A stretch of DNA of 64,000 bases from Strongyloides papillosus (Eukaryota > Nematoda > Chromadorea > Rhabditida > Strongyloididae), in contig SRSI01000023.1 in NCBI GenBank assembly GCA_005656395.1, positions 1 to 64,000 on the forward strand, given 5' to 3'. Both the position numbers and the translations under genes were made by a program. Of this stretch, positions 18,772 through 21,698 are shown in pieces (positions within the stretch are counted from its first letter, which is position 1; each line of letters opens with the position of its first letter). A model generated the notes under the pieces. The model saw only the letters and a list, made by a program, of their open reading frames with translations, was not told the origin of the DNA and made no database searches.

Positions 18772-18987
18772 TGTAAAGGAATGTAACATTTCTTTATGAA
18801 GATGTAGTTTCCCATTCATCCATTAGTATAGATGCATTATCACTAATGGAGTAGGGTGTTTTATATATCACATAAATTTATATTTTTGATATATTATATC
18901 TTAGATTATCTTTTTAAAAATAAAACTTTATCATTTTTATATTTTATTCTTCATCGATTTCCATAAATATGTTGAAATCGACTAACA
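18772..18987 (+). repeat. 5' LTR of the first retrotransposon
   Basis: 216 bp, TG...CA ends, matched by 31264-31471. An AATAAA-type signal about 65 bp from its end is conserved in both LTRs. An ATG at 18969 inside the LTR, also conserved in the 3' LTR, is in frame with ORF1. Confidence 0.85.
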
Positions 18988-21698
18988 TGGAGGTTCCACC
19001 TAAGGAACAAAATAAGAAAATAAAGGATAAAGAGTTATTTGACACTCTAATGGGACAGTTAAAAATGTATGAATCCGTTGACCAGGAGATAGAGCAATCA
19101 TTAAGGGCTCTATGGTCAACAGGAAACTACAAGGCGGCAGAAAAGCTAATTGACAAAATGATTGGCAATATAGACAAAGACTCTTCGAAGGCGGATAGGT
19201 TGGCTACACCGGAAGTTAAATCAGCTGTAAATGACAACACATTATTGAGAACACTTACTCCATTTGAAGGAAATAATGTTACCGAATTTAAACTATGGGT
19301 AGAAACTTACGATTTGACTGTTTCACTAGCACATCAGACACTACCCAATGAACAGAAAGAGAAATTAAGATGTATTTATTTGGCATCCTATTTGAAAGGT
19401 CGCGCAGGACAATTACGTAAAGATGCGTATGCAAGGATGGAAGATATTACATTTGATAGATTGATCGGATATATTGAAAATAATTTACCAGTACCTATAA
19501 GTATTGAAAGAACAGGACGGATGAGAAGGGTTTATTTCAAAAACATGACCGACGACTTTGAGGAACACTGTAATACGTTCTTAGAAGGCACGAAAGCTGC
19601 GACAGGAGTAAGCATAGATATGTTGGCTGGACGATCTTCAGGAACAATGGAACCATTACAACAGCTTACCAGAATTGATTTTATAAACAGCTTCCCCTTC
19701 TATATTAGGGAACATTTGGAACAAATGGCTTTCACATCTTCTCTTTGGGAAATTAAAGATGCAGCCTTCGAACTAGTACTAAGAGAAAGAAACAAATTAA
19801 AAAGACGAAATATGAAAGTCTCGTCACCAACCACAGAGAGGAAGAACCAGCATTCCAACGAAGACAAACGTCAAGAACGAAGGCAGACACCAGGATACTT
19901 CAAATCACGAAGATCTGTTAATACAGTTAACCCGCAACAACCTGAAGGTATCAATCATCCTTCAGAAGTTGAAGACCCGGTCGAACTTAATTTTGCAGGT
20001 CCTATCGTACCAACAGTTCTGTCAATACAGCCAGGGAAGATACCGACACATAGATCTGTTGGTTTAGCGTGGTGGATAGTAGTATTATTGGCGGTAATAC
20101 CGGTAATATACATGAGTCACTATGTATGGGATTGTAATCAGGTATTATCCAAATCATGGAACATAGCAGCTCCTCATAGAATAAATTGTAATAGTCCTCA
20201 AATGTGGCACTTAGAATCTAGGTACGTGTTTCGTAGATCCGAAAACAATTGTACGAAAACACTGGAATTATTAGCGGTCAGTAATAATTTCATATTGCTA
20301 ATCAAGGACAACCCTACATTGTTATACAAGACAAAGGAAAACAACCAGAAATGTAATGTTTCAGCTTATACACTCAGTAAGGGATATTTGACCAATATTG
20401 TGGACAACATTTGGCAATTTCCAACTTCATCGCAAGAGGTGACGGATGATCACATAAGATTACCCGAAGATATGGATGCAAGCTTAAAGGGCATAGCAAT
20501 ACAGTTGCTGCTATATAAGGCGGGCATATTAGTAAGGCAACTTGACAAGACGCAATGGGACGCCTTATTTATTAATATTTTCAATGCACACTACAAGAAA
20601 GTGCACAAAAGACATGTATTTCGAACTATTACTTTTACATTGGTTCAGCAATTAGTAACACCTTTATATAATACAGCATGTGTTAGACTTCAGAAGGAAT
20701 TCATGGACATTAGTAAGACAATTGATCCTACGGAGAAAATGCGAATATTTTTGGAAAGGGAAGACATTAGGGCATCATACCATAAAGGTAGATACAATAT
20801 TCAAACATGTACAAAAGTGAAACCAACCTCTATCTTTACGGATTATAGGTACCAAAATATTTGTTACACATTTATGCCAGCTATAGTAAATAAATCATTC
20901 AAGTTCGTGGACCAAAAAAATTATTTGCATGAACACTCCCAAGGATCTCCGTGTGTTACAATGGCTAAAGAGGAAATTCAACAGATACAAGAGACTCAGA
21001 GATCAGATGAAGGAATTCTCGAATCCTTAGGAGAAACATTAAATATGTTTGAGAAGACAGTACAAGCACTGGAACTATCAGTGATGCACGGTATTGTAGT
21101 TATTTTAGGGATACTCGCTTGTATAATTATAAGTGTTTTGGTATGGAAATGCTATTGCAGGAATAAACGACGAGGCAACCGACAACGGAGGCGTCTTTTA
21201 GGCAGAATGAGCGATATGGTAGAAATGCAATTAATGAGACCAACAGTGTCAGTAGCAGTAACACAGATAGGGAAACAACCCATGGTGGATCTCTACGTTC
21301 ATCAGGAAGGGCAAACCAAAAGTGCTAGGTATCTTATTGATACAGGGGCTTGTGTTTCGTTTATACGCAAGAAATGTGTAAAGCACAATACATCTCTGTC
21401 ACTTTTTACCCAGCCAATGACAGTTGCAACGGACTTTAATAATCAACCTATAAAGGCCATAGGGAAAACATCAATCCTGTTTGTCTTTGGAAGAAAGAAA
21501 TACGTTAAGGTTGACATATGGGTAGTGGATGACCTTAGATATGATATACTCATTGGCTCGGATGTCTTGGAAGAGATGGATAGGAATAATTTGTCAGTCA
21601 CGTTCAAATTAGCAGCTAATTCAATACAAATAGGCACTATAAGATATCCTTTGGTGAGGAAAGCTTCAGTGGCATATTTACAACCATATGAAGTATGA
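18969..21698 (+). CDS. Gag / membrane ectodomain / protease polyprotein (ORF1)
   Basis: This is a single 909-codon frame. Residues about 90-280 resemble a retroelement capsid (a PFEG...F..W line, then helical segments), followed by a basic Arg/Lys/Gln stretch (to about 320) with no CCHC knuckle. Residues about 364-385 form a hydrophobic membrane segment. About 386-705 look extracytoplasmic: eight cysteines (389, 407, 428, 462, 571, 614, 632, 662), N-glycosylation sequons at 427, 463 and 641, a basic KVHKR cluster near 544-548, and a heptad-like stretch at about 665-705. A second membrane segment (about 707-726) is followed by a strongly basic tail, consistent with cytoplasmic ends on both sides. 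The aspartic protease follows, with DTGA at 791-794 and ILIGSDVLE at 860-868. Start codons at 18969 (in the LTR) and 18987 are both possible. The ectodomain family is not recognised. An env-like role is inference. Confidence 0.8.
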   Translation: MLKSTNMEVPPKEQNKKIKDKELFDTLMGQLKMYESVDQEIEQSLRALWSTGNYKAAEKLIDKMIGNIDKDSSKADRLATPEVKSAVNDNTLLRTLTPFEGNNVTEFKLWVETYDLTVSLAHQTLPNEQKEKLRCIYLASYLKGRAGQLRKDAYARMEDITFDRLIGYIENNLPVPISIERTGRMRRVYFKNMTDDFEEHCNTFLEGTKAATGVSIDMLAGRSSGTMEPLQQLTRIDFINSFPFYIREHLEQMAFTSSLWEIKDAAFELVLRERNKLKRRNMKVSSPTTERKNQHSNEDKRQERRQTPGYFKSRRSVNTVNPQQPEGINHPSEVEDPVELNFAGPIVPTVLSIQPGKIPTHRSVGLAWWIVVLLAVIPVIYMSHYVWDCNQVLSKSWNIAAPHRINCNSPQMWHLESRYVFRRSENNCTKTLELLAVSNNFILLIKDNPTLLYKTKENNQKCNVSAYTLSKGYLTNIVDNIWQFPTSSQEVTDDHIRLPEDMDASLKGIAIQLLLYKAGILVRQLDKTQWDALFINIFNAHYKKVHKRHVFRTITFTLVQQLVTPLYNTACVRLQKEFMDISKTIDPTEKMRIFLEREDIRASYHKGRYNIQTCTKVKPTSIFTDYRYQNICYTFMPAIVNKSFKFVDQKNYLHEHSQGSPCVTMAKEEIQQIQETQRSDEGILESLGETLNMFEKTVQALELSVMHGIVVILGILACIIISVLVWKCYCRNKRRGNRQRRRLLGRMSDMVEMQLMRPTVSVAVTQIGKQPMVDLYVHQEGQTKSARYLIDTGACVSFIRKKCVKHNTSLSLFTQPMTVATDFNNQPIKAIGKTSILFVFGRKKYVKVDIWVVDDLRYDILIGSDVLEEMDRNNLSVTFKLAANSIQIGTIRYPLVRKASVAYLQPYEV
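18988..19000 (+). promoter_or_regulatory. Primer binding site, tRNA-Gln type
   Basis: TGGAGGTTCCACC follows the LTR terminal CA with no gap. It is complementary to a CCA-tailed tRNA ending GGTGGAACCT-CCA, which is the 3' end of eukaryotic tRNA-Gln as I know it. It sits inside the ORF1 reading frame, so these bases serve as primer site and apparently also as codons. Confidence 0.75.

Follow-up and report, generated by a model that had tools for sequence, protein, structure and literature searches.

In retroviruses and their relatives, the capsid is coupled to the membrane through separate Gag and Env proteins, and in errantiviruses and env-bearing Ty3/gypsy elements the extra open reading frame (ORF) lies downstream of pol. 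Here we describe a long terminal repeat (LTR) element of the nematode Strongyloides papillosus, found in the first 64,000 nucleotides (nt) of contig SRSI01000023.1 (GenBank assembly GCA_005656395.1; hereafter the window), in which an envelope-like module appears to lie inside the polyprotein, between Gag and the protease (PR). It shares with errantiviruses and env-bearing Ty3/gypsy elements the Ty3/gypsy enzymes and acquired membrane or envelope-like modules, but differs from them in that their extra ORF comes after pol. A single uninterrupted Gag-Pol-Env polyprotein is described for the hookworm Atlas virus (Belpaoviridae), with a class II, phlebovirus-like Env as its last part (PMC9094657). 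Rotifer elements are reported to capture varied downstream ORF3s (PMC5408684), and Cer1 of C. elegans, described as free of a gag/pol stop, codes after pol for CERV, a nuclear RNA-export protein (PMC10309623). Foamy virus Gag is reported to be without a membrane signal, envelopment needing a membrane-spanning Env leader that faces the cytosolic Gag (PMC7828637), and Drosophila sORF2 elements of the MDG1 group are reported to pass between cells by a short, separate, non-canonical transmembrane protein (PMC11952523).

An initial annotation of the window had taken Env to be always a separate product made downstream of pol, which the description of Atlas virus shows to be too strong (PMC9094657). 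Like the latter, the S. papillosus element is a nematode LTR element with an envelope or envelope-like module in one polyprotein with Gag and Pol; but Atlas virus is a BEL/Pao element with a C-terminal Env, whereas the S. papillosus element has a Ty3-type reverse transcriptase (RT) and a module of no known family between Gag and PR (PMC9094657). It lacks the Atlas-type combination of a BEL/Pao RT with a C-terminal phlebovirus-like Env: its first ORF (ORF1) has no Pfam glycoprotein match, and in the related copy L029 the frame ends with integrase (IN). It likewise departs from retroviral and errantiviral Env, the module standing before PR rather than downstream of pol and having no furin-like site. 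Cer1 resembles it as a nematode LTR retrotransposon without a gag-pol stop, but carries its extra ORF after pol (PMC10309623). Foamy viruses serve as a functional comparison and not as relatives, their Env being separate and the Gag-Env link non-covalent, as opposed to the covalent link predicted for the S. papillosus element (PMC7828637). The MDG1-group sORF2 product also differs, as a short separate protein, from an eight-cysteine ectodomain inside a polyprotein (PMC11952523). The initial annotation knew of no described element with the window's order, and we too found no Gag-Env-PR-Pol order in a Ty3/gypsy element in the titles and abstract starts of the open-licence PubMed Central papers listed by our searches. 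The element would thus be an env-like-bearing Ty3/gypsy element with a new gene order, the single Gag-Pol-Env polyprotein being already known in a nematode-derived element, Atlas virus.

Reading from genome sequence alone, we think it rather probable that an envelope-like spike sits midway in the element's polyprotein, in the order Gag - (signal or transmembrane segment - disulfide-bonded ectodomain - transmembrane segment) - PR - RT - RNase H (RH) - IN. This proposal draws on the order itself, which diverged lineages share, on purifying selection acting on the ectodomain, on copies bounded by LTRs that have no env downstream, and on stand-alone homologs of the ectodomain, most of them with a signal-like start.

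The window element and its putative two-pass frame

ORF1 is an uninterrupted frame of 909 codons at 18969-21698 (+), coding in order for Gag, a membrane segment, an ectodomain, a second membrane segment, a basic tail and PR. The parts of the element in the window are as follows.

18772..18987 (+): 5' LTR, 90.7% identical to the LTR of the sister copy L027
19245..20003 (+): Gag region, residues 93-345; capsid role suggested by position; 32% conserved with lineage 2 of the family
20058..20114 (+): membrane segment 1, residues 364-382, probable internal signal; hydropathy 2.44, flank charge +2 / 0
20124..21086 (+): ectodomain, residues 386-706, eight cysteines and three sequons; supported by cysteine and sequon scan, dN/dS (ratio of nonsynonymous to synonymous substitution rates) and profile alignment
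21090..21146 (+): membrane segment 2, residues 708-726; hydropathy 3.00
21147..21206 (+): basic tail, residues 727-746, net charge +10
21318..21584 (+): aspartic protease, residues 784-872; RVP_2 E 0.0021, gag-asp_proteas E 0.0036, both below cut-off
21705..23681 (+): ORF2, with RT, RH and the integrase zinc domain (Pfam), continuing the frame of ORF1
23682..23920 (+): integrase core remnant, out of frame; similarity to L027 stops at 23920

By its enzymes and repeats, ORF1 is part of a Ty3/gypsy LTR element: the order PR-RT-RH-IN and the Ty3-like RT are those of Ty3/gypsy elements (Metaviridae), as are the paired LTRs with short target-site repeats of the sister copies, and the closest solved protein (PDB) to RT is Ty3 Gag-Pol (E 1.9e-84). 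The first ATG of ORF1 falls within the 5' LTR, the only LTR of the window copy; this copy is broken, since its similarity to L027 ends inside integrase. The protease, claimed in the initial annotation to follow the second membrane segment and its basic tail, is in place, with a weak RVP_2 match over residues 786-872, below the curated cut-off, and a DTG motif. The claim of a capsid-like Gag fared less evenly: the position fits, but the window Gag stretch matches no Pfam family at E<=10 and no zinc knuckle, DUF7083 appears weakly (E 0.013) in one of three Gag rows only, and the sole PDB row for Gag, mL50 (E 0.0015), is located on a basic stretch.

With membrane segments defined as Kyte-Doolittle stretches above a hydropathy threshold, exactly two are present in ORF1, and the 909-codon frame with two such segments, eight cysteines and three sequons is as initially annotated. 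Over the 20 flanking residues on each side, the net charge is +2 before and 0 after segment 1, and -2 before and +10 after segment 2, a pattern compatible with cytosolic ends in both lineages of the family. Together with the two-pass signature, it supports the earlier suggestion that capsid and protease would lie on one side of the membrane and the ectodomain on the other. The ectodomain cysteines are at 389, 407, 428, 462, 571, 614, 632 and 662, and the sequons at 427, 463 and 641.

Family copies, selection and the extent of the polyprotein

A translated search of the S. papillosus assembly (58.2 Mb, 79 contigs) with ORF1 gave 33 matches. Seven of these run from Gag to protease in a single match, namely the window itself, two at 93-95% identity, three at 37-38% and one at 35%, and four of the seven have no internal stop. 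As a Gag-to-protease match crosses the membrane-bounded segment by construction, a query with Gag only is the better test. It gave ten genome matches, nine of them in loci whose ORF1 match continues into the ectodomain (reaching only residues 494 and 569 in two), the tenth being a fragment of about 106 residues; hence, no full-length copy without residues 364-726, which would have pointed to a chance fusion, came to light. Between the window and L029, which represents the second lineage, identity rises from 32% in Gag through 42% in the ectodomain and 46% in PR to 58% in RT/RH, values that fit descent as one unit. All eight ectodomain cysteines are common to these two copies, a sharing with a chance probability of 8e-4 at 133/320 identity; L029 has no further cysteine there, and neither of the two Gag cysteines is common to both.

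Pairwise dN/dS values (Nei-Gojobori, stop-bearing codons left out) show the ectodomain to be under purifying selection. They are 0.18 for the window against L027 (21 nonsynonymous and 27 synonymous differences), 0.17 for the window against L028 and 0.15 for L027 against L028 within lineage 1, and 0.13, 0.10 and 0 for lineage 2 pairs, on 9, 11 and 4 changes. Gag and RT of lineage 1 give 0.10-0.20. Less favourable are the very similar lineage 2 copies, with 0.54-1.08 for Gag and 0.25-0.84 for RT, and between lineages dS is mostly saturated. We rejected as very improbable the idea that an unrelated membrane-protein gene was fused into one copy, by chance or recently. A donor exists, given the stand-alone relatives present in the genome, but the order is colinear in deeply diverged lineages, the ectodomain dN/dS is below 0.2 and 8/8 cysteines are shared.

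Two LTR copies are present in each of L029, L030, L031 and L027; the L029 pair is 229 nt long and identical, the 5' LTR of L027 is interrupted by an insertion, and 4-bp flanking repeats can be seen by eye at L029 and L027. The integrase frame of L029 terminates inside its 3' LTR, so that no env could fit downstream in this copy. A further LTR of the family, 84% identical and possibly solo, lies in the window at 31264-31471.

The long frame is interrupted differently from copy to copy, each in its own numbering: the window has a stop at codon 910, ORF2 then ending at 1571; L027 has one at 917, L028 at 731 (1358 codons read), L029 at 1460, and L031 at 1096 and 1503, while L030 has none in the 1680 codons read and one stop further upstream in the locus. 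The window and L027 stops are near each other, which might be taken for a signal, but the other four copies have none there. Because stop positions vary among the copies, the division between ORF1 and ORF2 is not conserved, and the initial treatment of ORF1 as a separate unit needs correction. The ancestor was probably one Gag-ectodomain-PR-RT-RH-IN polyprotein, as judged from the copies compared.

Splicing could in principle separate the parts of this continuous DNA frame, one RNA serving Gag-PR-Pol or Gag alone and another the membrane protein. As read by eye, the database gene model P0002 leaves out segment 1 and part of the tail of segment 2, and nematode retroelements can use spliced RNAs, as described for Cer1 (PMC10309623). 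Nevertheless, several copies keep the whole stretch open and under selection in frame, and the gene model P0007 retains segment 2 and its tail; we regard such a division as distinctly improbable.

Relatives of the ectodomain and the slot before the protease

Residues ~386-665 of ORF1 align with stand-alone proteins of 510-515 residues, the profile match between fused and stand-alone forms (hhalign) having Prob 98.2 and E 4.5e-14 over 275 columns. Five such proteins are full-length, four from the genome (L012, L013, L016, L020) and one from the database (P0003). Their cysteines, at 34, 51, 76, 119, 270, 315, 333 and 364, precede two C-terminal membrane segments and are spaced much like the window's eight; an additional one at 186 occurs in two of the five. 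The window ectodomain thus has both the shared ectodomain and the eight cysteines of a family of stand-alone S. papillosus membrane proteins, which we define here. An N-terminal hydrophobic segment exceeds the threshold in five of six proteins scanned (four full-length and the shorter P0006), L013 falling below. The family is dispersed and partly decayed, with 59 genome matches, fused loci included. Word-based protein database searches gave, among the matches listed, relatives only from S. papillosus (1, 3 and 3 matches), and IMG/VR gave none; the S. papillosus database proteins agree with genome copies in 229/229, 347/349 and 259/260 residues, other pairs being 90-95% identical. A weak Pfam match to Baculo_19 (residues 582-656, E 0.018, below cut-off) raised the idea of a baculovirus link, which was dropped because the match is absent from the stand-alone relatives scanned.

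The stand-alone genes have a recurrent companion, a 538-residue neighbour ORF: all five loci matching it at 75% identity or more have a stand-alone eight-cysteine protein within 10 kilobases (kb) on the opposite strand, in one case as a fragment only. In one locus read further, the neighbour ORF is followed by a UCH-type peptidase (E 1.6e-14). Their mobility is suggested by the dispersed shared blocks, and the stand-alone loci are probably another, unclassified mobile element. Two more specific identities were rejected. An antisense env of a retroelement was suggested by the divergent placement of stand-alone ORFs relative to other ORFs and by L016, where an RT/IN ORF starts 36 bp from the stand-alone ORF; the RT/IN ORF was taken as an insertion, since the sister locus L013 matches L016 only up to this ORF and no locus gave a close match to it. 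A Mutator-like transposase was not borne out for the neighbour ORF, the MULE profile being negative at those loci and Pfam finding no transposase.

Several arrangements of these loci may be recorded here. An eight-cysteine protein is divergent to an ORF of 538 or more residues in L013:2-5081, L036, L012, L014, L016 and L020, with a 403-residue ORF in L013. A decayed stand-alone relative is found in L009, L010 and L011 (C15:554967, 568153, 581338), as part of a block present in three copies spaced by about 13.2 kb, of which L009 and L010 are 99.99% identical over 7 kb. An ectodomain relative of 395 residues occupies two places, L015:4146-5330 and L021:4585-5770 (-), 98.7% identical over 3.4 kb, and no polymerase ORF was found beside it in the repeated block. 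In L018:6357-9431 (+), a 1025-residue ORF without Pfam match is divergent to another stand-alone relative.

Could the module be a membrane-spanning internal anchor with no role in entry, tethering Gag-Pol to an internal membrane, with particles assembling and remaining in the cell and the luminal part being a retention or folding domain? It would agree with the lack of any fusion-protein family or furin-like site in our searches, with copies that are few and vertically explicable, and with no homologs outside S. papillosus among the matches listed. A mere anchor would not, however, explain why the eight-cysteine module also occurs stand-alone, mostly signal-bearing, in other repeated loci, and the whole ectodomain is under purifying selection; we consider this reading unlikely, though less so than splicing.

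The place between Gag and protease is also filled in other gypsy elements. A genome query with RT gave at least 68 rows (534 candidates, 67 scored). Among the matches listed, 7/68 belong to the window family at 56-100% identity and the other 61 are at 33-38%; 27/68 lie in frames of at least 1900 residues, counted by reading through stops, and 24 of these 27 have no stop in the match. We read the pre-protease part of two distant elements, L026 fully and L037 in part. In L026 (L026:1249-7713, a 2155-residue frame), the stretch between Gag and PR has a signal-like segment (437-462) and a hydrophobic one (879-897), which enclose nine cysteines, two sequons and what by eye has a coiled-coil look; PR, RT, RNase H and integrase follow. 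The stretch of L037 read (1-2700, the pre-protease part of a 2379-residue frame) is laid out similarly, its segment being at 291-309, and ends before any second segment. The two are colinear at 19% identity; their E-value of 1e-14 was obtained without composition correction or filters, a setting that makes coiled coils score too well. The L026 pre-protease query found two copies at 98-99% and ten more places, where colinear matches of 32-56% identity come in up to three pieces. No homology was detectable between the L026 and window modules (hhalign Prob 0.2). A counter-example comes from the window itself: its second gypsy element (26096-29730) has a CCHC Gag, and neither of the two ORFs contains such a segment.

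We tentatively propose, as a possibility we rate somewhat below even, that in Ty3/gypsy elements of Strongyloides the place between Gag and protease is a 'spike slot', filled by membrane spikes of unrelated kinds: the eight-cysteine module of the window family, which is shared with unrelated, probably mobile loci, and the signal-like, coiled-coil-looking module of the distant lineages. A polyprotein threaded twice through the membrane would there yield capsid, spike and enzymes at 1:1:1, with envelopment built into translation and no need for a separate env RNA or a Gag membrane signal.

Elsewhere in the window, four copies of an 81-nt repeat (25406-25767) lie upstream of the second gypsy element, which has a separate Pol ORF, and an inverted repeat with 191-nt arms, 97% complementary, lies just upstream of the 5' LTR (18102-18698). 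Pfam also identifies a hAT-type transposase ORF (43877-45820), a carboxylesterase (48099-49559, -) and a TMC-domain protein (60154-63888).

A proposed spike within the polyprotein, its predicted topology and its significance

If the envelope-like spike is real, Gag would be made first and remain in the cytosol. Segment 1 would then act as an internal signal that sends the ribosome to the endoplasmic reticulum (ER), and the ectodomain would be threaded into the ER lumen, where its cysteines would pair and glycosylation would be possible. Segment 2 and the basic tail would stop the transfer and anchor the ectodomain, so that synthesis of PR-RT-RH-IN would go on in the cytosol. In this manner, one patch of membrane would initially carry Gag, spike and Pol in equal numbers, which signal peptidase and PR would then separate, acting on the two sides of the membrane. 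The spike would function in egress and in entry, its most plausible use being passage from one cell to another or into the germ line.

Several observations weigh against this proposal. No copy examined was established as intact from the first ATG to the end of integrase. Sequence and profile searches match no known glycoprotein or fusion-protein family to the ectodomain or its relatives, both structure models are of low confidence (predicted local distance difference test, pLDDT, 39 and 43), and no furin-like RX[KR]R occurs in the ectodomain of the window, L027, L029 or six stand-alone proteins. Cysteine conservation extends beyond the ectodomain, three of the four cysteines of tail and PR being common to the window and L029. 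The conservation looked for in the initial annotation holds only in part: the eight cysteines are kept and the ectodomain dN/dS is 0-0.18, but the sequon positions are not conserved in L029, which has sequons at 435, 440, 509, 616 and 733; and the charge pattern of the two membrane segments is kept in both lineages, but segment 1 is only 14% identical between them, with a dN/dS of up to 1.01 in one pair, on five changes.

Should the proposed topology be correct, a polyprotein with two membrane crossings between its capsid and protease parts would represent a different solution to the coupling of capsid and membrane. Gag, spike and Pol would be synthesized equally, capsid and protease would face the cytosol, and env would need no splicing. 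The stand-alone eight-cysteine module in other repeated loci further points to a trade in surface proteins between kinds of element. Finally, this gene order may be used as a signature for envelope-bearing elements missed by searches for env after pol.

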